A DNA stretch of 64,000 nt, taken from positions 16,607 to 80,606 of IMG/VR virus record IMGVR_UViG_3300009183_000069. One strand, 5' to 3'. Below, piece by piece: positions 22,843-64,000 of this stretch. Numbering within the stretch: position 1 is the stretch's first letter; the number at the start of each line of letters is the position of its first letter. The notes under the pieces were generated by a model. It had not been told where the DNA came from and did no database searches. It was given only the letters and a program-made list of their open reading frames with translations. A program made the translations under genes and the position numbers. Origin of the DNA: a virus.

Positions 22843-22843
22843 A

Positions 22844-31800: not shown

Positions 31801-34800
31801 TAAAGCAGATACATCTATTAACGGTTTAAAACTTTTAAGAGAACAACCTGATCTTGTAGACGTTTCAACTATTGATAGAGTAGCATTAATAGATTCTTTT
31901 AAAGAAGAAGTAATAGAGTATCTAGACGTTATTGATCCATTAAAAGGAAAGATTGCAGGAATTGCTGAACAAGAATTAAAATACAAATCATCATTTGATC
32001 CTGCTGTATATTCGATTGGAAATTTAACTGCGGTAGTTGACAGTAATACAAGTTGGATCGATGATCACGTTGGTGAATTATGGTGGGATATAAGCACCGC
32101 AAAATATCAATGTTATGAGCAAGGTGATGAAATATTCAGAAAAAATAACTGGGGTAAATTATTCCCAGGTGCAACTATTGATGTCTATGAGTGGGTTAAA
32201 TCTGATCTATTGCCCAGTGAATGGGCATCACAAGCAGATACCAATGATGGATTAACAAAAGGTATTAGTGGACAACCAAAATATCCTGACAACAGTATTC
32301 TTTCTGTAAAACAATTGTTTAATAATGTAACAAGATCATTTGAAAATGTTTATTTCTTTTGGGTAAAGAATAAAGTAAATGTTCCTGAAGCAAATAATAA
32401 TAGAAGAATAAGCAGTTATCAGGTTGCTAGCATTATTGCAGATCCAATTGCCAACGGTTTAAAATTTGTTGAGATATTATCTAAAGATTCAGTAGCATTT
32501 GCTAATGTACAATCTATGTTAATAAGTGATAGAATTAATGCAAATATTGCTATTAATTCTAATAAGAGTGAAATACCAAGACATACCGAATGGGAACTAA
32601 TAGCAGAGGGTAATGAAAATAATATGCCACCTCCTCTGTTGGAGAAAAAACTAATAGATAGTTTATTAGGGCATGATCAATTGGGTAATAATGTTCCTGC
32701 AATTAATACAACATATAGAAATAGATATGGAATTGGTATTCGACCTCAACAAACATTATTTAAAGATAGAATAGAAGCATTGAGAAATCAAATTGCATTT
32801 GCTAATTCTGTTTTAATAAAAGAACAATTAACAGGTAACTACAATTTTAATAATCTAAATAGTTACGATACAATCTCAGATGCATTTTATAGAGAGTATG
32901 ACATAGTAGTTGATTCGCTATCAACCATTGATACTCTTTTATTTGAACAAGCAACAATAAAATGTTTTGTTAACAATGGTAAAATAATATCTGTAGAAAT
33001 AATTAAACCAGGCTTTGGATATCTATTAGCACCGTTGGTGACTATAAATTCAACAGCAGGAGAAGAAGCAGAACTTCTAACAGAAATAAACAGCAACGGA
33101 GAAATTATAAATGTTACAATATCTAATGCTGGATACGGTTATGTTAATGCTCCTACATTAATTGTTCGTCCTCACACTGCTATCATTAGATCGGATAGCA
33201 ATTATAACGGCCGTTGGACTAAACATATATTTGACTATATCTATAAAAAATGGAATAGAGTTGGAAATCAAAAATATGATACAAGATTATATTGGCAATA
33301 TACCGATTGGATAAAAGACAGCTATAGTAAATTTAAAGACTATAGATATAGCATTGATGCTACTTATGAAATTGATACATTATCTAATGTATCCGTTGGA
33401 GACTATGTACGAATTAAAAATATAGGCGATGGCAGATACGCTATTATTGAAAAATTAGCCGATACAGAAATTGGTGACTTTTCTAAATCATACAATTTTG
33501 TTTATATAGAAAAAGGAACAATACAAATAAAAGATTCAATATGGAATTTTTCTAATATAAATGTTTCTTATGATTCATCTACTTTAGAAGATACATTATA
33601 TGATCAAGTGCCTGATTTAGAATTATATCATATATTGCTGGCATTAAAGGATGATATCTTTATTGGCAATCTTAAAGTCAATTGGAATTTGTTCTTTTTC
33701 AAAGCAGTAAAGTATGCATTAACAGAGCAAAAAATATTAGATTGGGCATTTAAAACTTCGTTCATTGATGTATATAATTCAATTGGTAATTTAGATCAGC
33801 GTCCGGTATATAAACTTGACAACGAAAAATATTTTGAAAATTATATTGAAGAAGTTAAACCTTATCACACCAACATAAGAAGATTTACTTCTAAATATTC
33901 ATCTGTAGAAGAAACTTCAACTCTTTCTTTTACTGATTTTGATGTACCATCAGCTTCTTGGACTGCTGCTCATAGTTATTGCGTTGGTAATATTATAGTT
34001 GCAGATCCTGGTACTTTATATACTCAGAAACCGACAATTACAATATCCGGTGGCGGCGCCAATGTTACTCCTGCTACCGCAGAAGCCTACATTAGAAGCG
34101 GCGTCGTCTATCAAATACTTGTAACAGATCCTGGAGCAGGATATACTGAAACTCCAACAATTACAATATCGGGTGGCGGTCCTTATGTTACTTCCACTGC
34201 ATCTGTTTCAGTCTCATTATTGAATTTAACCACAAGAAAAAATATTATAGGATTAAAATTTGATAGAGTTAGTGCAGTATCTGAAATAGGCAATGTAGAT
34301 GTCACTGAAGAATTTATATGTTCAGGAAAAGATACAAAATTTGTATTGTCTGTTTTAGCCGACCGTAATAAATTAAATATTATTCCAAGTCTTGATGGAC
34401 AATTGGTATTGTCAACTGATTATACAATAGAATATTACTCTGAAGAAAATAATGGATATACAAAACATTATTCAAGATTTGTATTTTTAAATTATGTTCC
34501 TAAAGAAACTCAGGTATTTAAAATAACATATAAAAAGAATATTAATTTATATACCGCAGTTGATAGAATAGAAAATCTATACACAGCCACTGACTCAATT
34601 TCGTCATTAATGAATGGAGTTGTTTATCCAGGTAATGTTATACAAGGATTACCGTTTGATTATTCTCCAGCTTGGGATACTGTTTCTGGATTAGGAAAAT
34701 ACGACCCAATAAACTCAGGATGGAGTGATAGTGTTGGATACTATGCATCTGCAAAAATAGTAAGTTCAGTAGCAGCAGGCGATACAACAATCTATCTTAA

Positions 34801-37800
34801 TACAACTACCGACATTGTTGTTGGACAAATAATTAGTCTATTAAATTCTCCAACTTCAAATCTACGCAAAGATACAGTTGTTAATTCTGTTAACTCTTTG
34901 AATAATTCTATTACAATAAGTCAAACTTATTACGCAATTAAATCTGTTAGAGCAACATCAACAAATATTAATTCTGATATTGTTGTTATAACCGTTGTTC
35001 CGTTTAATGGAGCAATTGTAGTTGGGGATTTGATTTCACTAGATGGAATTGAGAAAACTGAATTTAATGGAATATATTATATTTCAAGTATTACAGATAA
35101 AAATAAGTTTATTGTAAAATCTAATTCAGTATTATCAACTACAGCAACAGTACTTACATATGGTGAAGCAAGCATTACAATATCTTCTATGCTAGGTAGC
35201 ATTGACACAGATAGTGTATTACTAGATCATATATCTGAAACATTTATTCCTGATGATAATAATCATATAGAAGTTGATATAATGTTGCAGTATGATGATA
35301 TTACTAAAATTGAAATATTTAAAGACGGCGAAACTTTGCCAATGCTTACTGGAATTCCAATTGTAGGACCATATCCTACCAGTGAATATTATCATATAAC
35401 AAAAAATGTAATTACTGGTGGTGCTATAGTAAACTTCTATCAAATGACCAGCAATAGTTATGATTTAGATTTCTACTCGTATACCAATCCAAAACTTGAA
35501 TTCTGGAAAACTGATGTATTATCTGCAAGATTAGATTCTGTATTACCTGGTGGCTCCGTTAACTGGGGTAATTTTGCCGGAGGACTAGGCGTTCGATATG
35601 GAACAGTTTTACCCGAAGAAGGCACCAATTCTATAATTATAGATGGCGATTCATTCTTAAATGAAAGATCAGGATATGCACCTGATGAATGTGTAGCTGG
35701 ACACGTATTAGATAGCTTAGGTATTAATGTTTATACCAAAGCTGAAAATTCTTATCCTACTGTTATAACTGGCTCATTCCCTGTAAAAAAAGGAACACTA
35801 ACTGCTTATGAATTAAGTGTACCCGAAACAGAGTATGCAGGCATAATGGTTAATTTTAATGGAAAAATATTTGATAGAGTTGATAATGCTACCCAATTTA
35901 CAAATTCTCATCAATATTATATGATTGGGAATACAATCCATCTTCCACTACAATCTGTATCTGGAACAGCTGGATATACAATGGTTTCTATAGGTGGTAA
36001 TTATTCTTTACTCGATAGCAATATTGAAGGAGTATCTGGTGTTACATCTGCTACTGTAATAAGTTTGTTGTCAAGTATCAACGATGTTGTTATGGCTTAT
36101 GTATTAGTCGACGGTCATGAAATTTCTCAAGATACTCCAGAATCAGGTGATACAAAATATTATAAATTAACTGCTTATAGTAATAAAAATAATAGAGCAA
36201 GTGTACAAGTTTATGGTATTGATACTAATTCACATACCATTGAGGCTTGGTTCTTCCAATCTAAATATACAAAATTTAATAGGTTACACGAAGAATCACA
36301 AGACGGATCAGCTTCCCAATCAATGTTTACTCTTTCTTTTGTACCAGGAAATATTGAGCCAGTAAGCGCTCAAGTAATAGTTGAAATAGATGATGGCAGC
36401 TCAGGAAGAAGAAGATTATCACCACCTTGGGTTAGTTATTATCAAATTAAAGATGCTCAACTAACATTTGCAATTGATAGTAAGAATTTATCACGTACAT
36501 ATACTGCTGGTCAAGTAATGGTATATGCAAATGGAATAGAATTGCGTCCTGGATTTGATTATACATTTAATGATATTGATAGTACAGTAACAATCATTTC
36601 TGGACTACTGAGTATAGGTGATGTTATTGCAGTAGTAGGATTAATTGATTATGACTATATTGTAGTTGGTAATATATTACAGTTAACAAACCCACCTGTT
36701 AGTACTTTTAATTTAAAAATTATATCATTTACTGATCATGATAAAATGTTAATTAGAACAGAAAGATTTAACGGAACAATTGCTCGACGTTATACACTAT
36801 CTTTCTCTGTATTGTCTGATAATTACGTTTGGGTATATGTTGATGGAATTTCATTAACTGCTAGAACAGAGTTTGAAATTCTTGATGACATGAAAACTAT
36901 TCAGATAAGTGATTTGATTGATGTTTCCCCAAGTTCAAAAATAACAATTACCACAGTTAATCCACAATCTTATAACAATCAAATTATTGGATTTAGAATG
37001 TTTAATGATATTTTTGATAGACATCATTATAAGAGACTATCAAAATTTCATAGCACAACGTTGTTACGTGCATTAAGACATACTGATAATGAAATTTATC
37101 TAACTGATGGCAATGGAATAATTCCGCCTAATCCATTAACTAACAATCCTGGTATTGTTATAATTGATGGTGAGCGTATTGAATTTGCAGAAAAAGATGG
37201 AAATACTTTAAGAGGTCTAAGAAGAAGTAGTCTAGGAACTGGGCCTGCCACTTATTCAGCAGTTGGAACACAAGTAATAGATCAAAGTTCACAACAAACA
37301 ATACCTTATCTTGATACAATATTAGTACAGTCGACCTCTACTACAAGTACAACCTACATTATTAGTACAGTAACTACTACCGCTACAGGTGCCGGAATTG
37401 TTTTAGATCCAAATATTGATGCTGTAAATCAGGTTACTGTATATTACGGCGGCCGTCAATTACGTAAAACATCTTTGGTTGTTCATGATAAGTTCTATGA
37501 CAAACCTGTATATAATCCAGACCCTAGAACAGCATATATTTTGATTTTTGGGCAATCTAATATAGCTAATTACGGCGAACATACAGATAGTTACACACCC
37601 AATGATAAAGTAAAACGTCTTGATATAAATGGTAATTGGGAACTTGCTGTATCGCCAGGCGGTCCTAACAGATTGGCCACAGGATATAATTGGAGCACTG
37701 GCTCATCAGTAGATATACCAGGAGGACCATCCGGAGGCAACATGGATGGAAGAATTGGTGATACTCTTCTTCAGAGTGGAAAGTATGACAAAGTTTACAT

Positions 37801-38617
37801 TGTTAACGTTGCAGTCGGAGGTATACCACTAGCTTGGTGGCTCAGTACTGCATTACCTTCTGCGTACCTTGGAGGAGTTCCGAGAAATGAAGATAATTTC
37901 CCGTATGTTAATAATAGACTCTTTGAAAGACTACAATTTGCAGTCAGCAAAGCCAACGAGCTTGGATTTGAATTCACACACGTTTTATATGGCGCAGGCG
38001 AATCAGATTCAATCGCTCCTAATATTACACCGTCGGATGTTTATCAAAGCAGATTTGCACAACTTAGAAATGAACTTAGAACATTGGGTGTAACTGCTCC
38101 TATATTCATCAGCAAAACATCTTATTTTGTAAATCCTCCATATACCACTGACATTATAACTAATGCACAGCAAGCCATAGTTAATAATTATTCAGATGTA
38201 TATCTTGGACCAAATACGGATCTGTATGGAGATAGTTATCGTTGGGATCATTTACATTTTAAAACATCAGGATTAAGTGCAATTGGCAGTACATGGGGTA
38301 ATACAATCGTTGATACCTTAACATCATTTGATCCTGTTGCTCCTGAGTTCTCTATAAACACATCTACTAATGAATTGTTGTTAAATATTTCAGACTATAA
38401 TGGAATACCCACAAATATTACCATCATACAGAAAAAAGGACAAATTTGGACAGGAACAGAATCGTTATTAACCAGTAACGTAATACAAGCTGAATTCTTA
38501 CAAGATAGAAAATCTCTATTACCGGATATATATTATTATGGTGGAGAGTCAGTGCTTAAAGATAATGATAATGTAATCATCACTGACGACAACGACCAAC
38601 CCTTAGAAGGATATTAA
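22844..38617 (+). CDS. Giant baseplate wedge/fibre protein (gp7-like N terminus, propeller, SGNH esterase)
   Basis: One ORF of 5257 residues, from the ATG 1 nt after gp6 (a GTG 12 nt earlier is less likely). The N terminus, LLPEYLQSVKNSKFLSGTID..., and DTDRPDIHPWEMLG with KPTWWD match the giant wedge proteins that take the gp7 place in environmental T4-like phages. Residues about 1985-2982 hold FG-GAP-like units (FGHS...GAP, FGKS...IG), with helical repeats set in at about 2172-2310 and 2427-2853. Near 3725-3783 are two GY..TPTITISGGG units. Near the C terminus GQSN (Ser4905), GES (about 5052) and DHLHF (D5135, H5138) mark an SGNH/SASA esterase. It probably links baseplate to fibres and deacetylates a surface glycan. 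No frameshift is seen. Confidence 0.8.
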   Translation: MADNKKSVNLLPEYLQSVKNSKFLSGTIDPLIQTPQIERIDGFVGSKISPNYNIKTDYYINEDSSLRTNYSLEPALILKDQSSKITDAIAFDDLINEIKIQGGNTDNLDLLFRSKFYSYDPYIDWDKLVNYTHYHWLPNGPDSILVDDLKANIESTSTYTILNNYSLSNGMKLKLSSDNKEYYVEGVGTSIKLIEVTLLNVDELVDTIYNEKFDSDAFDNYPFDGDKKLPLTAEYTTINRASIDSNPWSRYNRWFHLEIIRITAEINKSDFLLSLDSRAKRPIIEFKPDIQLYNFGNIGIGKIDLIDDNTLDAFGSVDGTLGYYVDGILLAQGNTVIFNADVNDDVRGKIYIVDFDFSTNPPTLQLVESINPVELNSIVINSGNTYLGTSWYYNANSHTWIYAQQHTKINQAPLFDLYNHAHQSYGNTSTYYNSNFVGCKIFGYDIGTGTADSVLGFPLKYQNSVGVGSYLFKNYFMTDSIIVTNSPNVISSTISTGITYFKVSDNYVNVWQPSVEYHTPIIEIQEIVNATNTTTIQSVKEFTNVSILVNSKLTTATISGLNLTFNNTLNVNDVVSLSITSNNIPNSNGFYEAPIGLTHNPLNGPISDMTLSELSDHLATMINRIPEFSGDFPGINNLRDLSGYSKYGTRLIVNSNPIAFAKMFLGKKEHNLVDAIRYAGDQYNQFKMYLLKSITNIDYQLSPADALDKVLININNNKDARAPYYRSDMLGYGSNKIVKSYIVSNINIDTYPIGVDFNLSTLSFKSVLVYIGNEQLIYGKDYDITMDEIVFHQSLNINDVINIHYYPDTQGSFIPPTPSKLGLYPTYAPIMYSDDSYRIDSSILVIRGHDGSIMPAYNDYRDAIILEYEKRVFNNIKVEYDAKVFDVNAALPGIFRNDRYSLIDVSLEIPSILRNDAATKLLTKDFIKWTGIYNIDASTNNVFDEGDPFTWNYKNSYNTLTNTMLSGYWRSIYKDFFDTDRPDIHPWEMLGHASKPTWWDDNYNWINPTKRAALINAVELGIVNPTTTEPLIDNNYARPGFDSIVPVDTSGMLLPPSEFLASENSYNDKIADWKFGDQGPAETAWRKSSYWPFALNAAAALLDPCGYSSSMFDTSRTSLNSNTSQLTYLEDDLYLNPNKMVLEGQSNAQTAGYGVYVVEVGLQKDLHYLDKLQDDLTYINFNLFHKLGGFVSKDKLQIVIDSIDPISQAPGAILPPEDYTLLLNTSNPIKSSSISGVIIQKSNGNFVIKGYDKVNPYFEILSPIKTLAGVTLTVGGKSEVFTEWTGVSGSSGLGAIDTTAPGNSVTTHYYKQGQIVSYNGKYYRVKIGHTTQSTFDPALFYQLPSLPMVGGSSVVRSSKFENQVTKIPYGTNFSTIQEVYDMLLGYGAYLEKQGFIFDEYNSDLGEIVDWNFTGKEFLYWTTQNWADGNLITLSPFSDYLKYSFTDSVVDNISTGKYEYSLLKADGKSFPINKFTLSREDGVCTVKTIDTLDGIFFATLNSVQKEHGMVIKNKTIFNDTIYDIETGYKQRRIKLSGFRTLGWNGDLSSPGFIYDNVDITDWIANGKYLPGNVVRYNGSYYEADAKIINDSKFDFTKWIKLNKKPESNLLTNFDYKINQFEDFYSLDIDNFDATQQQLAQHLIGYTPRTFLNNIFTNNISQYKFYQGFIKEKGTKNAIDKISKVGKFARQGDITFNEEWAFRLGSYGSFGTYNELEFTLDEGSSSENPFVIKFADSKDTNPLINYILPSNLLISPDTYIPSSTFTIYPSTFSDSNIKLPTAGYVRSDDVTATAYNKNSLLDIANNSLIQEGNTFWLGFLDNGDWNVYRYTEMTARIAGVFVSSPAVSITFTTDINHNLSVGDIVSIVNFNNQVNGIHIITDISRLDQFTVSSDLTTIINSDLLTNGLLFKFEKARYNNFAELSDNAVLSTLKNGEKIWVDNGSNGKWQVYEKIQNYTTGFVEAATTSVTAQRLGESIFTLENSSILLMSAPGKFTNAPIYGNVGVYLKNNNQLIKQFDYTLNNHSKIYCQTDSENDFGLSLSIDVNKGLLFAGAPAASNIVIPSANTNTTGIAIFSDGSGITKTFAQEGIVKISSTNKNFIQETTEKVLVHPYATTSTTAAYSRFGHSIYNSQPSSNTSTLLLVGAPGSINSDNTYTGRVYAYNVLREQYYNATKAQVIYALAASSLAPLFYGEVTITNWMVAGIDQLEQFYYEYRLVNPVDAAAWDADRAADNVGIKNTRIEVIAAYQNNILAELYPSEDNIRYWMINGIGPDSRIFNESVIAYRSTHPTDADRIDSERVAAENSNIPATKISGHPSGITLKSVVSLNAGSQFGHSISGDSNGSIIAVGAPYYINTISNTTGVIQLYDKNLHWFQSIPSPFIGHEAFGENVVISSDGTYLVASSPEIRGTTNGTKGRVAIYRLSGTGIRIQASRASVILAYASNLLAPLYPSELDIHIWTVVGLDSFDSTIDSNRAASPAAAAAIDKERAADSLGMLASRADVIIAYQTNVEAPLYPTEAEIRYWMATGLGTGTNGFAAEITYNNSTNPSAYAANLAQRITLATPSPYLSTRFEVINAYASNLRAEVNPSNGDILSWMTSGLGTNNITFNTDVESRRTSNPSLATSIDAARAADAVGTSGAPIRSSRAAVIAAYQGNLDANPYPTEQEIRYWMSVGLGYLVATNNPLGAFNAAVTRDNALYPDIYLSWLQARAADYPKASRGQVILAYASNLLTELYPNETAINYWMVQGLTNFDSSNNTNRANDPALAAAIDMARAADAINIKSSRAAVISAYQTNVDAPFYPTEKQIRRWMIAGLDSSSFTIFNETITANNLSNPTNAAIYRNQRLEALPSVDFTYDLYQVIDNPLKNNDLKFGKSIAISDNSNKLAIGAVGVNGPIPLKFDINFKDGETTFDQGTTNFSSFAEDSGTVFLYYNIDGSFVQSENITDPSPIAGDKFGYSVAVTNNNTFVGAPSISGVSKFYQFNKADTSINGLKLLREQPDLVDVSTIDRVALIDSFKEEVIEYLDVIDPLKGKIAGIAEQELKYKSSFDPAVYSIGNLTAVVDSNTSWIDDHVGELWWDISTAKYQCYEQGDEIFRKNNWGKLFPGATIDVYEWVKSDLLPSEWASQADTNDGLTKGISGQPKYPDNSILSVKQLFNNVTRSFENVYFFWVKNKVNVPEANNNRRISSYQVASIIADPIANGLKFVEILSKDSVAFANVQSMLISDRINANIAINSNKSEIPRHTEWELIAEGNENNMPPPLLEKKLIDSLLGHDQLGNNVPAINTTYRNRYGIGIRPQQTLFKDRIEALRNQIAFANSVLIKEQLTGNYNFNNLNSYDTISDAFYREYDIVVDSLSTIDTLLFEQATIKCFVNNGKIISVEIIKPGFGYLLAPLVTINSTAGEEAELLTEINSNGEIINVTISNAGYGYVNAPTLIVRPHTAIIRSDSNYNGRWTKHIFDYIYKKWNRVGNQKYDTRLYWQYTDWIKDSYSKFKDYRYSIDATYEIDTLSNVSVGDYVRIKNIGDGRYAIIEKLADTEIGDFSKSYNFVYIEKGTIQIKDSIWNFSNINVSYDSSTLEDTLYDQVPDLELYHILLALKDDIFIGNLKVNWNLFFFKAVKYALTEQKILDWAFKTSFIDVYNSIGNLDQRPVYKLDNEKYFENYIEEVKPYHTNIRRFTSKYSSVEETSTLSFTDFDVPSASWTAAHSYCVGNIIVADPGTLYTQKPTITISGGGANVTPATAEAYIRSGVVYQILVTDPGAGYTETPTITISGGGPYVTSTASVSVSLLNLTTRKNIIGLKFDRVSAVSEIGNVDVTEEFICSGKDTKFVLSVLADRNKLNIIPSLDGQLVLSTDYTIEYYSEENNGYTKHYSRFVFLNYVPKETQVFKITYKKNINLYTAVDRIENLYTATDSISSLMNGVVYPGNVIQGLPFDYSPAWDTVSGLGKYDPINSGWSDSVGYYASAKIVSSVAAGDTTIYLNTTTDIVVGQIISLLNSPTSNLRKDTVVNSVNSLNNSITISQTYYAIKSVRATSTNINSDIVVITVVPFNGAIVVGDLISLDGIEKTEFNGIYYISSITDKNKFIVKSNSVLSTTATVLTYGEASITISSMLGSIDTDSVLLDHISETFIPDDNNHIEVDIMLQYDDITKIEIFKDGETLPMLTGIPIVGPYPTSEYYHITKNVITGGAIVNFYQMTSNSYDLDFYSYTNPKLEFWKTDVLSARLDSVLPGGSVNWGNFAGGLGVRYGTVLPEEGTNSIIIDGDSFLNERSGYAPDECVAGHVLDSLGINVYTKAENSYPTVITGSFPVKKGTLTAYELSVPETEYAGIMVNFNGKIFDRVDNATQFTNSHQYYMIGNTIHLPLQSVSGTAGYTMVSIGGNYSLLDSNIEGVSGVTSATVISLLSSINDVVMAYVLVDGHEISQDTPESGDTKYYKLTAYSNKNNRASVQVYGIDTNSHTIEAWFFQSKYTKFNRLHEESQDGSASQSMFTLSFVPGNIEPVSAQVIVEIDDGSSGRRRLSPPWVSYYQIKDAQLTFAIDSKNLSRTYTAGQVMVYANGIELRPGFDYTFNDIDSTVTIISGLLSIGDVIAVVGLIDYDYIVVGNILQLTNPPVSTFNLKIISFTDHDKMLIRTERFNGTIARRYTLSFSVLSDNYVWVYVDGISLTARTEFEILDDMKTIQISDLIDVSPSSKITITTVNPQSYNNQIIGFRMFNDIFDRHHYKRLSKFHSTTLLRALRHTDNEIYLTDGNGIIPPNPLTNNPGIVIIDGERIEFAEKDGNTLRGLRRSSLGTGPATYSAVGTQVIDQSSQQTIPYLDTILVQSTSTTSTTYIISTVTTTATGAGIVLDPNIDAVNQVTVYYGGRQLRKTSLVVHDKFYDKPVYNPDPRTAYILIFGQSNIANYGEHTDSYTPNDKVKRLDINGNWELAVSPGGPNRLATGYNWSTGSSVDIPGGPSGGNMDGRIGDTLLQSGKYDKVYIVNVAVGGIPLAWWLSTALPSAYLGGVPRNEDNFPYVNNRLFERLQFAVSKANELGFEFTHVLYGAGESDSIAPNITPSDVYQSRFAQLRNELRTLGVTAPIFISKTSYFVNPPYTTDIITNAQQAIVNNYSDVYLGPNTDLYGDSYRWDHLHFKTSGLSAIGSTWGNTIVDTLTSFDPVAPEFSINTSTNELLLNISDYNGIPTNITIIQKKGQIWTGTESLLTSNVIQAEFLQDRKSLLPDIYYYGGESVLKDNDNVIITDDNDQPLEGY
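29357..31402 (+). repeat. Eight degenerate 70-residue helical repeats within the giant protein
   Basis: Units start near 29357, 29560, 30133, 30342, 30558, 30781, 31003 and 31201. Each has the pattern [RK].xVI.AY..N..A.LYP.E..I.YWM..GL followed by a polar stretch with NP.. and a D..RAAD. helix. Spacing inside each block is about 205-220 nt. Two units sit in one loop of the FG-GAP-like region and six in the next. The DNA is diverged, so the repeats are old rather than a recent slippage product. Confidence 0.75.
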
Positions 38618-53305: not shown

Positions 53306-54163
53306 TTAAGTTCCCCACTCATTTTTAAAGAGCGGAACTTGTAAACGATCACTATAACGTAAACCGTGCTTCATTGCTAACAATGCTACATTACGATTGT
53401 TCATTGCATACACACTTTCAACACCACCTACTGGCATTAGATAGATATGACCAATAAATCCTGCCTTGCGATAAGCAGCAATCGCACATTCGGCATCAGC
53501 AAAGTCTTGTTCTGTGGCAATAACAAACTTCAAATATGCTGTACCGTATTCTTCGTACTCGCAAACACGTTCTGGTTTAATAGCTTCATCCCACGGTTCA
53601 CCACTACACGGTAGTTTAGCACTAACACTAAATGTAACTTCTCTATGGAAATCGTAATCGTGATGATATTTCCAAGTATGTAGGTATTGTTTAAATGGTG
53701 CTGTTAACTGCATAGTACCATTTGTTTCAAACGTAATCTCTTTAAGACCTTGCATCTTAGGATGTTTCAACAAGTCTGGATATTGTTTTTGCCAACCTAA
53801 CAATGGCTCGCCACCGGTAATAACTAGATGTTCATCACGCCATTCACTAAATGGAAGGATCTCCATAATACGTTCTACAATTGCATCTGTAGTCAACATT
53901 GGACTTAGATCTTTAAAACGTGGATCCCAACTTGCGTAACTATCACACCCTGTACTTACTAATGGCAATTTTTTATAGTCGTCGTAGTAATGAATACGTG
54001 CTGCAATATCTTCTACCTCACGACTTAGTTCGCCACGTGGCATACCAAATCCTTGACATTTAAAATTACAACCAAACGTTCTAAGGAACACGCTGGGCAC
54101 TCCCATATAACGTCCTTCACCCTGCACACTATAAAACAATTCTGCTATTTTAATCTTCGACAT
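53306..54163 (-). CDS. queE: 7-carboxy-7-deazaguanine synthase QueE
   Basis: The product is 285 aa from the ATG at 54163 with AAAGG upstream. A radical-SAM enzyme of the QueE family: LFYSVQGEGRYMGVPSVFLR, then CNFKC (C34, C38 from the TTG-based count) and a third cysteine in STGCDSY (C75) after a long insert. The ITGGEPLL motif follows. The usual CxxxCxxC is therefore split by about 36 residues, as in other phage QueE proteins I have seen. It makes CDG from carboxy-tetrahydropterin, a precursor of preQ0. It overlaps the epimerase by 14 nt. Confidence 0.9.
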   Translation of the reverse strand: MSKIKIAELFYSVQGEGRYMGVPSVFLRTFGCNFKCQGFGMPRGELSREVEDIAARIHYYDDYKKLPLVSTGCDSYASWDPRFKDLSPMLTTDAIVERIMEILPFSEWRDEHLVITGGEPLLGWQKQYPDLLKHPKMQGLKEITFETNGTMQLTAPFKQYLHTWKYHHDYDFHREVTFSVSAKLPCSGEPWDEAIKPERVCEYEEYGTAYLKFVIATEQDFADAECAIAAYRKAGFIGHIYLMPVGGVESVYAMNNRNVALLAMKHGLRYSDRLQVPLFKNEWGT

Positions 54164-55160
54164 GTTCAACCTTTATAATTTTAATAGTTTCCATCCAACT
54201 AAGAGTAGTTAATACAATGGTTTTTAATTGACTATATTTAGGTTGCCATTGAGTATCCGACATAAATTTAGTTGGATCTGCAATCAACTCATCTGGGTCA
54301 CCTAATCTTCTCGGCCCTAATTCATAATCAACATCTAGACCGGTGGCAGATTCTACTGCTTTTACTATTTCTAGATTGCTAATACCTTGACCTGTTCCTA
54401 GATTATACGCTTCAAATGTACCCTGGTCAAGTGTTTTAGCAAGATCAACAGCTTGTACGTGAGCACTAGCAATATCTGAAACGTGTAGATAATCTCGAAT
54501 ACACGTACCATCTTTGGTTAAAAAATCATTGCCGTTTAAAATTAATGTATTTTTTTCTAGCACACTTTGTATTACCTTTGGAATCAAATGTGTATCATTC
54601 CAATTATTACCAAGTTCTACTTCTGGATCACATCCACAGGCATTAAAGTATCTTAGTGCAATACCTTTATATCCATGTGCTTGTACATGACTTTCAATGA
54701 CGTATTCACACATCTTTTTACTATGACCGTATGGACTTACAGGTGTACCTTGTGCATATTCAGCAATAGGAACAGAACAATCATTGCCATAAGTTGCTGC
54801 ACTACTGCTAAAGATGATTGTACCTTTCCATCCTAACTTAGATAAGTCGTCTAACATACGATTAGTCTTGGCAACATTATTATCATAATATTCACCAGGA
54901 TCAGCAATACTAGGACCAACTAAGCTAGTTCCAGCAATATGTATAATTGTGTCTACATTGTTTATGTTAGCAGCCGTTGCTGTAATGTTTACGAAGTCGT
55001 CAATGATTAATTCGTTGACAAACATAGAAGCATTTGGAATAGTCCAAGTGCGGTCAATGCCAATTACATAATAGCCAGCCTGCTGAAAGGCCTTAGCGGT
55101 ATGACTACCGATAAAGCCCATCGCGCCTGTTATGATGACTCGTTTAGTATTTTGACTCAC
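54150..55160 (-). CDS. NAD-dependent sugar epimerase/dehydratase (GalE-like)
   Basis: The product is 336 aa from a GTG at 55160; an AGGAAA ribosome site lies 7 nt upstream. The Rossmann motif is VIITGAMGFIGSHTAKAF (GxxGxxG). The catalytic pair is YGHSK (YxxxK) with SSSAATYG before it. RYFNACGCDPE and the C-terminal IRDYLHVSDIASAHV and YNLGTGQGIS are typical of UDP-glucose 4-epimerases. It would convert nucleotide sugars for the glycosyltransferase just upstream, which it overlaps by 17 nt. The exact sugar cannot be told. Confidence 0.88.
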   Translation of the reverse strand: MSQNTKRVIITGAMGFIGSHTAKAFQQAGYYVIGIDRTWTIPNASMFVNELIIDDFVNITATAANINNVDTIIHIAGTSLVGPSIADPGEYYDNNVAKTNRMLDDLSKLGWKGTIIFSSSAATYGNDCSVPIAEYAQGTPVSPYGHSKKMCEYVIESHVQAHGYKGIALRYFNACGCDPEVELGNNWNDTHLIPKVIQSVLEKNTLILNGNDFLTKDGTCIRDYLHVSDIASAHVQAVDLAKTLDQGTFEAYNLGTGQGISNLEIVKAVESATGLDVDYELGPRRLGDPDELIADPTKFMSDTQWQPKYSQLKTIVLTTLSWMETIKIIKVEHVED

Positions 55161-56319
55161 GAGTATGTTTCCTATAGTCAGTGCCCATACGTAACATACT
55201 GTCACCTGTACCTTCTAATATATTACAAATACGGTCAATAGTACCGTCATTGTAATCACTAATCATACCTAACTTAGGATCTGGCCAAGTTAACAATACT
55301 TCTAATTTATTTAGAGCATCGTCAATAGACCAGGGAACATATAAGCGAGTGTGATCGTTGGCAAAAGTTTCAGGGAAGCTACGATAAGCAGGATACAATA
55401 CATTACAACCTAACGCATCGGCTTCACTGACTGTGTTTGATACCCAGTCTTGCAAAGCACAATTAAACACCACACGACTATCATTAACAATGTTGTAGTA
55501 GTCATTTTTTTCTAGATCCTGATAAATTTTTAGTATGCCCTTGGCCTCTAGATTGCGTGTACGTTCCATATAGCTTTCGCTATTTGATTTAAGTTTGCCA
55601 CCACTACATACACAGAATTCTGTGCTGTTACCTGGATGTCGTTTGTAGAACTCTTCAATGAGATCCATATAGAAGTCTGGTTGCTTCTCTTGATCCCACC
55701 GTGCTGAGAATACCACACGATTCTTGCGTTCAGCAAATGGTTTAATATTTCCTACACGACCTTGTACTTCACTCTTGCCAAATGCTAATCCACTGATATT
55801 GTAGATTGGACTTTTCCAACCTGCAATCTTCATATGCATTACCATTTCTTCATTAGTTGCAAGTACTCCGTCCACAAATGAGTCAACCATTTTTTCGTAG
55901 TGACCCATGAAATCCTGCATACCCCATACATGAACAAAATCGTCAGGATCAATGGACTGAGCAAGACAGCGAACATAAATCCTAGGCCTGTGAATAGGAT
56001 CAATTTGCTTAAGAATATACGGAAGACTTTCGATTCCGGGCTGAAACATGTCTTCAAAGTAGACAACATCTTCATTATTCAATTCTCCTTGTTTCATCAT
56101 CTTAATTAGATTCATTAGCTGTGACATACCAAAGTATGTACGACCATGTGCATCCAATACTTGACCTGTTACGATTGCTTGGTCATTGCTGAGTGTTTCG
56201 CCAGGCACAACAATATAGTCGATACCGCGACGATCGAATACAGCAGTATTCCAGTCTTGCAATTGATATGTATATCGGGCGACATATTTTTCTAACCCCA
56301 TATAATATAGTTTACGCAT
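55144..56319 (-). CDS. GT-B glycosyltransferase
   Basis: The product is 391 aa. The C-terminal half shows the group 1 glycosyltransferase pattern: VVFSARWDQEKQPDFYMDLI, FCVCSGGKL, the LEKNDYYNIVNDSRVVFNCALQDWVSNTVSEADALGCNVL block (E..A.G.PV type motif), and PAYRSFPE. The N-terminal half has the second Rossmann lobe. It transfers a sugar from a nucleotide donor. It is coupled to a GalE-like epimerase and lies inside the queE-queD-dpdA region. The target may be DNA, a phage protein or host envelope. The first base overlaps the next gene upstream. Confidence 0.75.
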   Translation of the reverse strand: MRKLYYMGLEKYVARYTYQLQDWNTAVFDRRGIDYIVVPGETLSNDQAIVTGQVLDAHGRTYFGMSQLMNLIKMMKQGELNNEDVVYFEDMFQPGIESLPYILKQIDPIHRPRIYVRCLAQSIDPDDFVHVWGMQDFMGHYEKMVDSFVDGVLATNEEMVMHMKIAGWKSPIYNISGLAFGKSEVQGRVGNIKPFAERKNRVVFSARWDQEKQPDFYMDLIEEFYKRHPGNSTEFCVCSGGKLKSNSESYMERTRNLEAKGILKIYQDLEKNDYYNIVNDSRVVFNCALQDWVSNTVSEADALGCNVLYPAYRSFPETFANDHTRLYVPWSIDDALNKLEVLLTWPDPKLGMISDYNDGTIDRICNILEGTGDSMLRMGTDYRKHTRESKY

Positions 56320-59814: not shown

Positions 59815-62487
59815 TTATTCAAAGCTGAATAATGAACCAAAATTATTTGTTTGTGTAGTAGATTCTAGATCCCACTCTAGAACTCCGATAAGATTATCGA
59901 GTTTATTATTAATAATAACAGTTTCCATATCAGCGTGATCAAATGGTAAGTCTTGAAACCATTTAGGTAGTCGTAGTTCGTCAACCGGATATGCCACGCT
60001 GGTATAGCCAAGTGGATTATCTTTTAACTTACAAACAATTACTTTCATACCATCGACAATATTGGTGCTGTATTTGTCACCATTCATACGTTTAAGAGTA
60101 TTCCAGTTGATACTAGCACGAACATGTCCGGGCATATTTGCTTTACCTGCCTTACGTTCTTTTTCTTGATATTCAGCAATGTTGTTGGCACGTTTAGGAC
60201 TACCCTTCTCCCATCCAGGTCGTGCTTTAAATTCAGTTCTAAATTCATTAATCATATCAAGAATTTCTTCTTCCTGACTACCATTTAGAACTTTGGTTAG
60301 TACTTCTTCAAGAAACTTCTGCATGAATTCTGGAGTATCGCTACGTTTCAAATCTAAACCCATGGCTTTAATTTTGCCAGGTTTAGTATCACTGTCATAT
60401 CTCTTGCCATCCTTGTCATAGTACAATACAGCATAACGCTTTTTGGTAATAAACAAGCCTTTGATAGCAACAATTTCACGTCCTGCTTTAATAACTTCAC
60501 CACGTGATTTTGGACAGTGGAATGTATCTAACATGAATTGTGGAAATGTAGCATTAACATTATCTGCAATTGTATTGTATAGTTGTATAGCAATATCTTT
60601 ATCCCAAGGTAGTAATTTCTTTTGAATATCAATCTTTAATGTATTGTAGGCAGAGAAGTAACAACTGTCTGTATCACCATATATAATACTTTTACCAACG
60701 TGATCAAAATCACCTGTAATAACTTCATTAACTTTACCTGCCATATGGCGAGCAATGGCACGACCGGTAAGTGTGGTACTTTGTCCAATACGCTTGTCAA
60801 AGAATCTGCAACCTGGATTCAAAATAGCACCGTACAAACTATTCAAGTTAATCTTCTTAACCAGTTGTCGTTTGTCCCAGTATTCTTCTTCAATCTTATT
60901 GCCGGCATCGATTGCTGCTTTAAGTTTCTTCTGCATGTCTTTACGCTCACTGTACCAGCGAGCCAGCAAGCCGGGAATAATACCTTCTTGCTCATGGGTA
61001 AAGATTGTGCCATTTGCACTGAGCATCCATGGGTTATTACTTTCATATATTAATCTATAAGCCTCGGCACCGCTTAGTATATCATACTCGCCATTTTCCC
61101 AATCAATGGTAATTTCAAATGCACGATCTTGTCGCATTACTGCTTCGAATTCTAAGCTGCCAAACATACCTTCCCATGCAGCCGCAAAGGATTTTTTATC
61201 CAATGTTGTTTGTTTATGAATAAATTCATCGGTATTAGTTTGTCGTATTTGTCCAACAATGGTTTCTGGACCCATATTCAATGCACGAATAACACTGGGA
61301 TATAGACTGTTAATGTCCATGCTTCCGATGTAATCATGTAATCCTTTTTTAGGATATGCTACATAAGCACCTGCGGCTTGATTGTTTTCAGTCTCATCAC
61401 GCTTGGCACGACTTGGAACAATTAACCCTCTGTGATGTGCTTCATTAACAATTGCTTGTTCTGTTACTGCCACGGCACCCATGGTGGTCTGTAGCAATAC
61501 AGTACATTCGTGTGCTAGTGTATTGGCAAGATCTATAAACTTTAGTTTCTTATCTAACTTATCAAGTAGTGCGGTATCTTGTCTATTGTATTCAATGAAC
61601 TTGCGGAAGTCTTTATTATAAAGTTGATCCAGTGTACCTTCGTAGACAGTCTTGCTCTCACCTACTTCCATCTCTCCAATGGCATCGAGCCTGTAGGTAT
61701 GGCGTTCTTCGTAGGTGTATTTCCTGTACAGTTCGAGACTGTCCAAATGAACGCGACCAATAAGATCATAAGTAACAGCCTGTTTCCCATATTTCTCGTA
61801 TTCTCTCTTTTTTGGAAATTGATCCCACAAACAAAATCTGCGTGTATCTTCTTTGCTCAATACCTTAGTGACTCTATTAACAGTATAAGGAATATCAAAA
61901 CCTTCACTATTCCAACCGCTTAATACATCAGCATCTTCAATTAATGTTAGAAATGCATCTAACATCTCTGCTTCTGTTTCAAACAACACAGTATTAGGAA
62001 AGTCCTTGACCTGTTCCTTAGCCTGCTCCATGGTTAGAGTCTTGGGTGGAACAGCAAAACATACCAGTGTGTCTAACCATTGTAAGTGAACAGCGATCGC
62101 AGTGATGGGCATAAAAGCATCTTCAGGAGTGCTATAGCCACGTTCCGGATCAAAGTCTACCTCAATGTCAAAAAATGCTACGTGTAATTTTGGTGGATCA
62201 ATGCCGAGATAATGATCTTCCAAACAGCGGAATGCTGGTTTGATATCGCTTTCGTAGAGTCTACGTTCGCCGTGGATGCGTAGTTCTTTTTGAAAGTCCT
62301 TGTTATTTCTACAAGTAACTTTATTTAGATTCTCACCGTAGATTGATTTGTACTTACCCTTTTGATCAGGATAATAAAAGATAAATTTGGCAGGATATTC
62401 TTGATAGATTCTACCCTTCTTTGCATCGCGCTCAACTACCTTAACAATATCTTTGTCGCGATCCCACCATGCGTCAACATATGACAT
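59815..62487 (-). CDS. 43: DNA polymerase gp43 (family B)
   Basis: The product is 890 aa, T4 gp43 length (898). Exonuclease motifs: FFDIEVD (D107, E109), GWNSEGFD (from about 191) and YNRQD (about 300-304). Polymerase motifs: DINSLYPS (391-398), KINLNSLYG (545-553) and YGDTDS (603-608). Motif order and spacing are complete, so it should be an active proofreading replicase. No intein is visible. The end LFSFE may be the clamp-binding peptide (T4 gp43 ends with a similar hydrophobic tail). The start has GGAGG, the strongest ribosome site in the window. Confidence 0.97.
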   Translation of the reverse strand: MSYVDAWWDRDKDIVKVVERDAKKGRIYQEYPAKFIFYYPDQKGKYKSIYGENLNKVTCRNNKDFQKELRIHGERRLYESDIKPAFRCLEDHYLGIDPPKLHVAFFDIEVDFDPERGYSTPEDAFMPITAIAVHLQWLDTLVCFAVPPKTLTMEQAKEQVKDFPNTVLFETEAEMLDAFLTLIEDADVLSGWNSEGFDIPYTVNRVTKVLSKEDTRRFCLWDQFPKKREYEKYGKQAVTYDLIGRVHLDSLELYRKYTYEERHTYRLDAIGEMEVGESKTVYEGTLDQLYNKDFRKFIEYNRQDTALLDKLDKKLKFIDLANTLAHECTVLLQTTMGAVAVTEQAIVNEAHHRGLIVPSRAKRDETENNQAAGAYVAYPKKGLHDYIGSMDINSLYPSVIRALNMGPETIVGQIRQTNTDEFIHKQTTLDKKSFAAAWEGMFGSLEFEAVMRQDRAFEITIDWENGEYDILSGAEAYRLIYESNNPWMLSANGTIFTHEQEGIIPGLLARWYSERKDMQKKLKAAIDAGNKIEEEYWDKRQLVKKINLNSLYGAILNPGCRFFDKRIGQSTTLTGRAIARHMAGKVNEVITGDFDHVGKSIIYGDTDSCYFSAYNTLKIDIQKKLLPWDKDIAIQLYNTIADNVNATFPQFMLDTFHCPKSRGEVIKAGREIVAIKGLFITKKRYAVLYYDKDGKRYDSDTKPGKIKAMGLDLKRSDTPEFMQKFLEEVLTKVLNGSQEEEILDMINEFRTEFKARPGWEKGSPKRANNIAEYQEKERKAGKANMPGHVRASINWNTLKRMNGDKYSTNIVDGMKVIVCKLKDNPLGYTSVAYPVDELRLPKWFQDLPFDHADMETVIINNKLDNLIGVLEWDLESTTQTNNFGSLFSFE

Positions 62488-62559: not shown

Positions 62560-62853
62560 TCATAAATTATTTAGCATCCTGAATAAGCCGATGCTATCTA
62601 TAGTGACTAACAATACGTAGTTCGCAAGCAGCCCAAAAGACTTACGGCTATAGCAAGCCCAACCATATAAAATACACTGGCTAATAAAAATAGGATAAAG
62701 AATGATAAGAGGCGGATTTGGGACTGTGAGCGCCATAGTGACACTACATCCGATTGAAGTTGCCCAAGCCGTAATCTCCACGATAAAACGTAAAGGGTAA
62801 GTTTTATAGTCATCCTTGATCCAATTAATGACATTAGCTAATTTTTCATTCAT
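62560..62853 (-). CDS. Small membrane protein
   Basis: The product is 97 aa from the ATG at 62853 (MNEKLANVI), in the overlap with the dsbA stop (ATGAATGA). Three hydrophobic segments are seen, about residues 22-46 (RFIVEITAWATSIGCSVTMAL), 48-66 (PPLIILYPIFISQCILYGW) and 73-92 (FGLLANYVLLVTIDSIGLF). It is likely in the inner membrane. Similar tiny membrane proteins are common beside polymerase genes in T4-like phages; function unknown. Confidence 0.6.
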   Translation of the reverse strand: MNEKLANVINWIKDDYKTYPLRFIVEITAWATSIGCSVTMALTVPNPPLIILYPIFISQCILYGWACYSRKSFGLLANYVLLVTIDSIGLFRMLNNL

Positions 62854-63118
62854 CAGTACGACGATGCGAATGTCCGCTGATATCCACGATAGTTTCCAAA
62901 TCGTCAAACTCTTTCCAAACGCTGTCCCATTGATCTTTCTGTGCAATCTTAATTGCTTTTTTGATCACGCTGGGTTTGACTTCGAGTTCTTCTGCTACTG
63001 CTTTGATTGTATCGTTAAGGCCTTCGGTAAGGTCTTGAATTTCCTGCAGAACGGTCATGCCTTCTGCTACTATCTGTTTAATTTTGGCCTGTTCAGGCGC
63101 CCCAAATGATTTACCCAT
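62846..63118 (-). CDS. dsbA: Double-stranded DNA-binding protein DsbA-like
   Basis: The product is 90 aa from the ATG at 63118, chosen for an AAGGAG site. The core reads QAKIKQIVAEGMTVLQEIQDLTEGLNDTIKAVAEELEVKPSVIKKAIKIA, which matches the DsbA family of T4-like phages. T4 DsbA binds DNA near late promoters and modestly enhances late transcription. The C terminus has an acidic stretch and SGHSHRR. It is preceded by a good sigma-70 promoter and overlaps the membrane protein by 8 nt. Confidence 0.82.
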   Translation of the reverse strand: MGKSFGAPEQAKIKQIVAEGMTVLQEIQDLTEGLNDTIKAVAEELEVKPSVIKKAIKIAQKDQWDSVWKEFDDLETIVDISGHSHRRTDE

Positions 63119-63138
63119 AAAAAATCTCCTTGTAAGTA

Positions 63139-63167
63139 AGTATATACTACGCAAGGAGTTCTGTCAA
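63139..63167 (-). promoter_or_regulatory. Sigma-70-type promoter for dsbA
   Basis: On the minus strand a perfect TTGACA (63162-63167), 17 nt and TATACT (63139-63144, 5/6). Ideal spacing; the leader ends in AAGGAG before the ATG at 63118. Confidence 0.75.
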
Positions 63168-63175
63168 GGTTTATT

Positions 63176-63718
63176 TTATAAACGAGCGTCTATAATGTTC
63201 CAATTGATAATTTTCCAATGATTATTTAGATAACCTTTTTTATCGGCTTGGTAATCCAATGACCAAGCATGTTCCCAAGCATCAATTAAAACAATAATAT
63301 CTTTCTTTATAGAATGATTGGGAATTATTTTTATATCACCATTGCTTGATAGATAGCACCAGCCACTTCCTTGAATGGACATAAACGATTTGGTAAATTC
63401 TTCTTTGAAGTTATCAAAAGATTTAAAATGTTGATCAATAAACTCTTTGGATGCACCAATTGGTGTATTTTCTTCATCTGGAATCTGTAGTTGTGGAAAG
63501 TATATACTATGTAAGTAAGCACCTGCTTCATTAAAGTCTAGATCACCTTCGCCGCTGTTATAGCGATTAACATAGGTTCTGTATAGTTTGCCATAATGAT
63601 AATCTATAGCATCTTCACTTAACACAGGTTCTAATGCATCTCGGGCATAGGATAATTTCACTTGTTCAAGTGTTTTGATCTCTTTGCCTTCTACTACATA
63701 TTTTATAAAATTAAACAT
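63176..63718 (-). CDS. Fe/Mn superoxide dismutase
   Basis: The product is 180 aa. The SOD fold is clear: ALEPVLSEDAIDYHYGKLYRTYVNRYN and DAWEHAWSLDYQADKKGYLNNHW. All four metal ligands are kept: H41, H70 (in YLHSIYF), D146 and H150. The His pair after H41 (HH in cellular enzymes) is LY here, the region after H70 is changed and a short N-terminal extension is present. It would turn superoxide into oxygen and peroxide, perhaps protecting infected cells. It overlaps the upstream gene by one base. Whether Fe or Mn is bound cannot be told. Confidence 0.88.
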   Translation of the reverse strand: MFNFIKYVVEGKEIKTLEQVKLSYARDALEPVLSEDAIDYHYGKLYRTYVNRYNSGEGDLDFNEAGAYLHSIYFPQLQIPDEENTPIGASKEFIDQHFKSFDNFKEEFTKSFMSIQGSGWCYLSSNGDIKIIPNHSIKKDIIVLIDAWEHAWSLDYQADKKGYLNNHWKIINWNIIDARL

Positions 63719-64000
63719 TATTTCTTTTTACCTGCTTTCATATTAGCGGCCCAATGTGCTAATTGTGCTGCTCGTCCTGAATGACTTTTGGCAAACTTTC
63801 TCAAACTGCTAATACTAGCATGTTTAGGAATACCGTGCCTTGCACTATCACCTTTATCCTCGGGATGACGTCCGTCAGCAAAATTCTCTGCTACATCCTG
63901 CTGACCTTCCACAGTAAGCCTGTCTAATGCTATTGGATTTAATACAACATTCGGTTTCAAGCCTTTGGTGTTAGCATAGGCCACATACACTTGATCTGTG
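63718..64000 (-). CDS. DUF6321-like small phage protein (5' end outside window)
   Basis: The frame is open to the window edge (TDQVYVAYANTKG...), so the start is missing; a GTG at 63990 is not a convincing start. The visible part has LTVEGQQDVAENFADGRHPEDKGDSARHGIPKHASISSLRKFAK and a basic tail. This is the pattern of a small family that I recall as a DUF in T4-like phages, with GDSARHGIPK as the core. The role is unknown. It shares one base with the SOD gene. Confidence 0.65.
   Translation of the reverse strand, partial: TDQVYVAYANTKGLKPNVVLNPIALDRLTVEGQQDVAENFADGRHPEDKGDSARHGIPKHASISSLRKFAKSHSGRAAQLAHWAANMKAGKKK

Follow-up and report, generated by a model that had tools for sequence, protein, structure and literature searches.

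A phage lineage of SodFM superoxide dismutases with a changed second shell and a capsid-targeting-like N-terminal tag

We analyzed a 64,000-nucleotide stretch of DNA (the window) that forms the end of an 80,606-base IMG/VR virus record. Close to the contig end lies a gene for a superoxide dismutase (SOD) of the SodFM family, and the features of this locus are collected in Table 1. The start of the small ORF downstream of the SOD was picked by comparison with relatives; the scan itself used 62846-63154. T4-type genes inside the window include a late sigma factor and a baseplate hub/lysozyme, and the same record encodes, before the window, an S77 prohead protease (G000:14466-14897, where G000 is the full record) and a Gp23 capsid protein. 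Elsewhere in the window, positions 22832-38617 form one 5261-aa ORF flanked by ORFs with tail/baseplate matches, and at 53306-55205 a nucleotide-sugar epimerase-like ORF adjoins a QueE-like radical SAM protein.

Table 1. Genes and residues at the SOD locus (window positions; the arrow marks the putative cut)
Feature	Positions	Strand	Remarks
SodFM superoxide dismutase gene	63176..63718	-	180 aa, ATG start, ORF confirmed
Capsid-targeting-like tag MFNFIKYVVE, residues 1-10	63689..63718	-	ends in (L/I/V)xE↓(G/A/S/N) prohead-protease-like site before G11
H41, metal ligand	63596..63598	-	invariant in alignments
L45-Y46, where the H30-H31 pair stands (human numbering)	63581..63586	-	94-sequence alignment
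H70, metal ligand	63509..63511	-	invariant in alignments
H135, C-terminal water-coordinating position	63314..63316	-	placed by PN(Q/H) motif, not coordinates
D146, metal ligand; XD-2 residue is L144	63281..63283	-	invariant in alignments
H150, metal ligand	63269..63271	-	invariant in alignments
S153, where interface Tyr166 stands (human numbering)	63260..63262	-	alignments
Upstream gene, 3' part (contig end cuts the rest)	63718..63999	-	TAATG: its stop overlaps the SOD start
Small ORF downstream of SOD	62846..63118	-	phrog_12534, E 1.5e-17; phrog_639, transcriptional regulator, E 8.6e-06
Family B DNA polymerase	59815..62487	-	phrog_262; beyond the small ORF, downstream of SOD

A search with the single protein found 41 viral loci, and one with a 28-row alignment returned at least 589 relatives among 600 pattern-matching stretches, of which 80 were kept. 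Merging 116 viral-contig loci by their SOD protein left 93 that differ in it, two of them (L022 and L038) partial. Our phage set of 94 sequences consists of 91 of these (L022 and L038 dropped) plus the window SOD and those of phage PA5oct and Vibrio phage 2.275.O. The 58 comparison rows comprise 57 from genome_contigs and one viral contig (L040); L041, L042, L045, L053, L097, L099, and L105 were left out, L077 and L089 were translated with code 25, and two fused SODs were trimmed to 186 residues before alignment. Among annotated phage records, 27 match the window SOD, the closest (40.5% identity) coming from 11 records of PA5oct-like Pseudomonas jumbo phages, and the SOD of Vibrio phage 2.275.O is 36.2% identical. 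Two PA5oct-like records carry the annotation sodB, and PA5oct's own record says hypothetical protein. In bacterial genomes, a scan with two short patterns picked out 61 loci, with a top identity of ~40%.

The window protein matches Pfam Sod_Fe_C (E 9.7e-23) and Sod_Fe_N (E 2.5e-11), both above the curated cut-offs, and the solved relatives closest by sequence are the Fe SODs 8avm (E 3.1e-32) and 8avl (E 6.2e-32). An AlphaFold model built from a 45-row alignment has a mean pLDDT of 92.3 and a pTM of 0.85, with residues 1-11 as the sole stretch of pLDDT under 50; aligned with VIA-align, its residues 15-180 reach Z ~24 to many SODs, including Z 24.2 over 165 residues to the Bacteroides fragilis SodFM2 enzyme 8avl. 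These E-values and the fold rule out a chance likeness to SOD, and full-length open frames in the 94 compared sequences rule out a pseudogene. A PHROGs search of the window protein gave no family at E 0.001 or better (best phrog_29625, E 0.088), and at E 0.01, one of the 28 aligned members had a match. Compared with the SodFM relatives 8avl and the Porphyromonas gingivalis SOD (1qnn/1ues), the phage SOD has the fold, the four ligands, Y34, GSGW, and DxWEH in common. It differs in its N-terminal hairpin and its C-terminal loop, both shorter (judged on alignments by eye), in H30/H31 changed to L/Y, W78 to F, loss of Y166, and L/I at XD-2, and in having His at the C-terminal water-coordinating position and an N-terminal tag. 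Judged by its sequence, the gene is intact and encodes a SodFM enzyme whose second shell is changed, as in the rest of its phage lineage, and its product very probably has dismutase activity.

The first-pass annotation had claimed that all four metal ligands remain while the second His pair of cellular enzymes and the aromatic residues near H70 are changed, and each part of this claim holds across the larger set. H41, H70, D146, and H150 do not vary in any of the 28 aligned phage sequences or of the 94 in the larger set, and L45, Y49, G66, F74, W120, Y122, H135, W148, and E149 are likewise invariant in the 94 distinct phage SODs. Position 45 is Leu in 94/94 phage SODs versus His in 57/58 comparison rows; position 46 is Tyr in 87 and Ala in 7 phage SODs versus His in 41/58; and position 74, near H70, is Phe in 94/94 versus Trp in 43 and Phe in 15 of the 58. 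At position 153, Tyr occurs in 0/94 phage SODs versus 57/58 comparison rows, the phage residues being Ala (66), Val (9), Asn (7), Ser (6), Met (2), Gln (2), Cys (1), and Phe (1). The XD-2 residue (position 144) is Leu in 84 and Ile in 10 phage SODs; the comparison rows have Val (17), Gly (15), Thr (14), Ala (8), and Cys (4), with Leu or Ile in none of the 58. Because these counts hold across 94 phage sequences, the second-shell changes run through the whole lineage. The tag-like N terminus and the C-terminal water-coordinating H135 go beyond the earlier account; comparison rows are left uncounted at position 135, where they look shifted in the automatic alignment.

We take positions 45, 46, 49, 74, and 153 to be H30, H31, Y34, W78, and Y166 in human MnSOD numbering, and the human enzyme presumably carries PN-Q143 where the window SOD has PN-H135. 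In human MnSOD, H30 is hydrogen-bonded to Y166 of the adjacent subunit, and since positions 45 and 153 are both changed, these partners would have been lost together. PDB titles among the structure matches include human H30N/Y166F and Y166F mutants. E149/H150, which we take to be the Glu-His residues of the dimer contact, are kept in phage SODs.

For the metal, we compared these residues with published classifications. In the portions of Sendra et al. 2023 (PMC10172142) considered here, SodFM1-5 are told apart by the water-coordinating residue and the HxxxHH motif; a C-terminal His is typical of SodFM3/4 (75% of SodFM3-4), SodFM4 differs from SodFM3 in that the final His of HxxxHH is gone, and Fe was the preferred metal of 9 of the 13 enzymes with a C-terminal His. 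A passage of PMC13008324 gives Staphylococcus aureus SodM, with Leu at XD-2, as cambialistic; no words starting with phage or virus occur in the main texts of the two papers. A C-terminal His, Leu/Ile at XD-2, and the absence of both pair His residues lead us to expect that the phage SODs are Fe-preferring or cambialistic. They resemble the SodFM4 subfamily in the C-terminal His (H135, 94/94) and in the lost last His of HxxxHH (94/94) but differ from it in having lost the first His of the pair too. They are not grouped with the SodFM4-like Shapirobacteria SODs L050 and L061, which we called so by their residues (our own assignment), in a tree that holds no certified SodFM4 references and has long branches flagged.

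That tree is a quick IQ-TREE run without bootstrap. Its 33 phage tips and 39 comparison tips are representatives picked to stay below 80% identity, and a single branch (SH-aLRT 100, stem length 1.8 changes per site) parts all 33 phage tips from the others. A phylogeny with cellular and phage SODs had been proposed as a check on long evolution in phages; in this quick tree, the phages form one clade apart from the 39 comparison rows, which supports that suggestion. The Vibrio, PA5oct, and L102 rows were flagged as long branches, and the tree singles out no cellular group as nearest to the phages. L102 (4794-5396), a Sericytochromatia SOD on a very long branch, also has Leu/Tyr for the His pair and no Tyr166, and it lies beside ORFs resembling succinate dehydrogenase (by eye).

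At the N terminus, most phage SODs start with M(Y/F)NFI(K/R)... and close this stretch in (L/I/V)xE↓(G/A/S/N). The strict pattern fits 88 of the 94 distinct phage SODs, in 31 distinct tags of 10-13 residues, with P3 being Leu (49), Val (24), or Ile (15) and P1' being Gly (80), Ser (3), Ala (3), or Asn (2). The six misses are L036, L039, L117 (Phe at P3), L172, PA5oct, and Vibrio phage 2.275.O; PA5oct has IAE↓A and lacks Phe-Ile, and L036 and the Vibrio phage have nothing tag-like at the N terminus. No strict tag was found in the 58 comparison rows, even starting from any Met in the first 45 residues; a number of these rows carry other N-terminal extensions. Mean pairwise identity (1,500 sampled pairs) is 0.69 over the first 7 residues, 0.69 in the core, and 0.48 over the 8 residues past the site, so the tag is conserved like the core although it lies outside the modelled SOD fold.

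Similar starts are found on T4 head proteins: IPII and IPIII begin MKTYQEFIAE↓A and gp24 begins MAKINELLRE↓S, the cut sites on these and on the gp23 start being drawn where we take them to be. The capsid protein of the window's record reads ...SLSE↓SATAG about where T4 gp23 reads ...FLTE↓AEIGG (compared by eye, with cut sites placed by homology). Peptidase_S77 and Gp23 were each found in 7 of the 14 records searched, including the window's own and PA5oct. According to sections of a review (PMC9026906), T4 propeptides are 10-19 residues long, IPIII is targeted mainly via residues 4 and 7 and processed via 8 and 10, and T4-type tags bring foreign proteins into the head. At the four IPIII key positions, the window tag reads F4, Y7, V8, and E10. 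At the level of motifs, the phage SODs share with T4 IPII/IPIII the tag length, the key positions, the LxE-type site, and an S77 protease in the genome; the difference is that their putative cargo is a metalloenzyme of a known family.

Other genes of these phages carry similar starts. A tight tag motif matched 15 of 1,370 non-SOD ORFs in five phage records (G000-G004), where the shuffle means sum to 1.73, and matched none of 516 bacterial ORFs, none of PA5oct's 386 non-SOD ORFs, and 3 of 63 ORFs in a T4 segment, ipII and ipIII included. It picks the putative scaffold gene adjoining the capsid gene in four of the five phage records. Among the 15 matches are mutual homologues and one or more apparent chance hits, such as a G002 ORF that looks MetK-like by eye; the motif fits only 46 of the 94 SODs, 12-residue tags falling outside its spacing. 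A looser N-terminal site motif was clearly above internal controls in G001 only (37/417 versus 13-23); the counts were not clearly above controls (in parentheses) in G000, 5/62 (3-5), G002, 27/375 (17-27), G003, 13/257 (10-19), G004, 17/264 (11-17), and PA5oct, 13/387 (10-14).

In the window's clade (24 loci in the neighbourhood count, with L142 and L147 added for this one), we took the three ORFs closest upstream of the SOD at each locus; of the 43 distinct ones on its strand, 19 carry the N-terminal site, versus a mean of 2.6 and a maximum of 7 in 1,000 shuffles, these distinct ORFs still including homologues of one another. The same site occurs on 0 of 49 ORFs downstream of the SOD in this clade and on 1 of 97 upstream ORFs in other loci. 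The tagged upstream ORFs start with MRANEFLNE↓A, MRINELLE↓A, and others, and their bodies fall into several unlike groups by eye; two of them were searched against Pfam and gave no match. An ending resembling that of the window's own upstream gene (...GRAAQLAHWAANMKAGKKK) is present on some tagged upstream ORFs of relatives. The SOD thus appears to end a tagged-cargo array in the window's clade, and the upstream/downstream contrast is the strongest sign of this.

Several observations adjoin this subject. Upstream ORFs of L003, L004, L006, L008, L012, L013, L018, L021, L142, and L147 have starts like the T4 capsid-targeting sequence, MRAxEF(I/L)xE or MRINELLE, and in several such ORFs, with window 63718-63999 listed too, the ending ...QLAHWxANM(K/R)xG stands on different bodies. 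Two distinct proteins, each at two loci (L117/L118 and L144/L145), have the SOD fused in one ORF to a C-terminal SGNH/GDSL-like domain (in L117, Pfam GDSL matches of E 0.003-0.004, below the cut-off), with a further xxE protease-site-like motif in the linker by eye. In G001, a separate ORF, SGNH-like by eye, has its own tag-like start.

The homologue in PA5oct bears on whether the SOD reaches the virion. The distant homologue gp223, which begins MNDSIKKYISIAE↓A, carries an ESI-MS/MS note in the PA5oct record, as do 92 other listed CDS, many of them named structural; to judge from the protein names, the note probably reflects virion proteomics. It is also on PA5oct ribonucleotide reductase, thymidylate synthase, GTP cyclohydrolase, and DNA ligase, and because such non-structural enzymes carry it, the detection of gp223 may be carry-over. 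As virion evidence for the SOD, it is suggestive only. The loose site occurs in 8 of 93 detected versus 10 of 329 undetected PA5oct proteins (Fisher p 0.036), a weak test because an internal control stretch gives similar counts (8/93 versus 10/294). In the main text of the MIJ3 paper, the words superoxide, sodB, and dismutase are all absent.

Gene neighbourhoods suggest what the enzyme may protect. In flanks of up to ~6 kb, many of them short, with gene families assigned by Pfam on representatives, a Fe-S assembly gene is present at 56 of 93 loci, that is, at 56 of 69 outside the window's clade and 0 of 24 within it; all 56 lie downstream of the SOD on the same strand. Across the 93 loci, we counted UvdE-type UV endonuclease at 49, an A-type Fe-S carrier at 50 (46 within 1 kb), IscU at 4, SufC-like at 5, SufBD at 5, and the large and small subunits of ribonucleotide reductase (RNR) at 4 and 5; because the loci are related, these are not independent events. 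The order in G002 and G004 is UvdE, SOD, SufC-like, SufBD, and in L034 and L035, the SOD lies between ORFs for the large and small RNR subunits (named by eye, with Pfam on L037 homologues). No Fe-S assembly or ribonucleotide reductase gene adjoins the SOD in the window's clade. To go by gene content, the several arrangements elsewhere seem to share one theme, which agrees with the damage that superoxide does to Fe-S enzymes. It had been suggested that the SOD may protect the infected cell or the replication machinery; this is plausible, and it becomes more specific because relatives have Fe-S assembly and ribonucleotide reductase genes as neighbours.

Other neighbours recur as well. A small Lys/Ala/Pro-rich basic protein (L146:438-692, minus strand, and 40 more loci of its cluster) lies mostly just upstream of the SOD on the opposite strand, and a small Cys-rich (CDCCQ...CG.C) protein (L136:4179-4466, minus strand, and 46 more loci) lies mostly just downstream, also on the opposite strand; one member of each was searched against Pfam and gave no match. 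L053 (2736-10174), one of the 61 loci from the bacterial scan and filed as a Methylophilaceae bin, looks to us like jumbo-phage DNA: upstream of a phage-type SOD with a broken frame, it has ClpS and PTPS/QueD-like genes, and downstream come SufB, a SufC-like ATPase, cysteine-desulfurase-like pieces, SufE, and glutaredoxin, a SUF operon.

We infer catalysis, metal, cleavage, packaging, injection, and beneficiaries as follows. The SOD would be a working Fe/Mn-type enzyme from the phage branch of the SodFM family, synthesized with a 10-13-residue N-terminal capsid-targeting tag. The tagged protein would enter the T4-type prohead, where the phage S77 prohead protease would cleave it after the tag's Glu; the cleaved enzyme would stay in the head and be injected along with the DNA, so that superoxide could be cleared ahead of any new phage protein synthesis. 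The likely beneficiaries would be Fe-S and di-iron enzymes on which the phage relies, plus the incoming DNA. We lean slightly toward packaging of the SOD into the head, and a working SOD that is packaged, injected, and guards iron enzymes seems to us a little better than an even bet. More tentatively, and with confidence just short of even, we propose that a widespread T4-like and jumbo-phage lineage packs and injects the tagged SOD, the last gene of a variable tagged-cargo array in the window's clade, and that the enzyme thereby protects the iron enzymes of the infected cell and the incoming DNA pre-emptively.

It is also possible, though we are doubtful of it, that the SOD is an ordinary auxiliary metabolic gene whose unpackaged product protects phage Fe-S/di-iron enzymes and DNA in the cell, with the tag serving another role such as partner binding. 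Freshwater phages with SODs and other oxidative-stress genes are described in this way in parts of PMC6802176, and a passage of PMC12542629 lists Fe/Mn SOD among putative Microcystis virus genes. The downstream same-strand Fe-S assembly genes at 56 of 69 loci outside the window's clade, the ESI-MS/MS note shared by non-structural PA5oct enzymes, and the position of the tag outside the modelled fold would all suit an auxiliary gene. Against it stand the core-like conservation of that same tag, the protease-site pattern in 88 of 94 SODs, and a tag form common to T4 internal proteins and to upstream ORFs of the window's clade.

It is unlikely that a SodFM-fold protein here has lost or changed its dismutase activity in favour of another metal, a metal store, or a structural role in the virion. 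The joint loss, in 94/94, of H30 and Y166 of the second-shell hydrogen-bond network and an XD-2 residue seen in none of the comparison rows would be consistent with such a change, but the four ligands, Y49 (Y34), W120, W148, E149, and H135 are invariant, as expected if selection has kept the chemistry unchanged. A recently captured host SOD with odd residues inherited from a donor bacterium is very improbable and was rejected on the single phage clade and its long stem: the bacterial L102 likewise has Leu at position 45 and no Tyr at 153, but it is a long branch elsewhere in the tree, and the best bacterial matches in the two-pattern scan are ~40% identical.

Phage SODs as such are already known, according to parts of PMC6802176 and PMC12542629, and the freshwater phage oxidative-stress genes (PMC6802176) and the PA5oct-like phages likewise include a phage-borne SOD; the consulted parts of PMC6802176 and the PA5oct record annotation name neither the tag nor the second-shell changes. 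Among the matches listed in our literature searches, none described a SOD carrying a capsid-targeting sequence, and none a phage SOD in a Fe-S assembly context, which is not proof of absence. As far as these searches show, the capsid-targeting-like tag, the array of tag-bearing neighbours, and the Fe-S assembly context are new.

A single lineage that has lost both H30 and Y166 can serve as a natural experiment on the outer network of hydrogen bonds in SodFM enzymes. Passages of PMC3012670 describe T-even internal proteins as diverse defence proteins with a common capsid-targeting sequence, among them T4 IPI*, which is injected and inhibits a host restriction enzyme. If the SOD is packaged, phages would also deliver a redox enzyme before gene expression, and phage-borne Fe-S assembly genes would be tied to oxidant control. 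The tag rule may give a way to seek other head-packaged cargo in uncultured T4-like phages.
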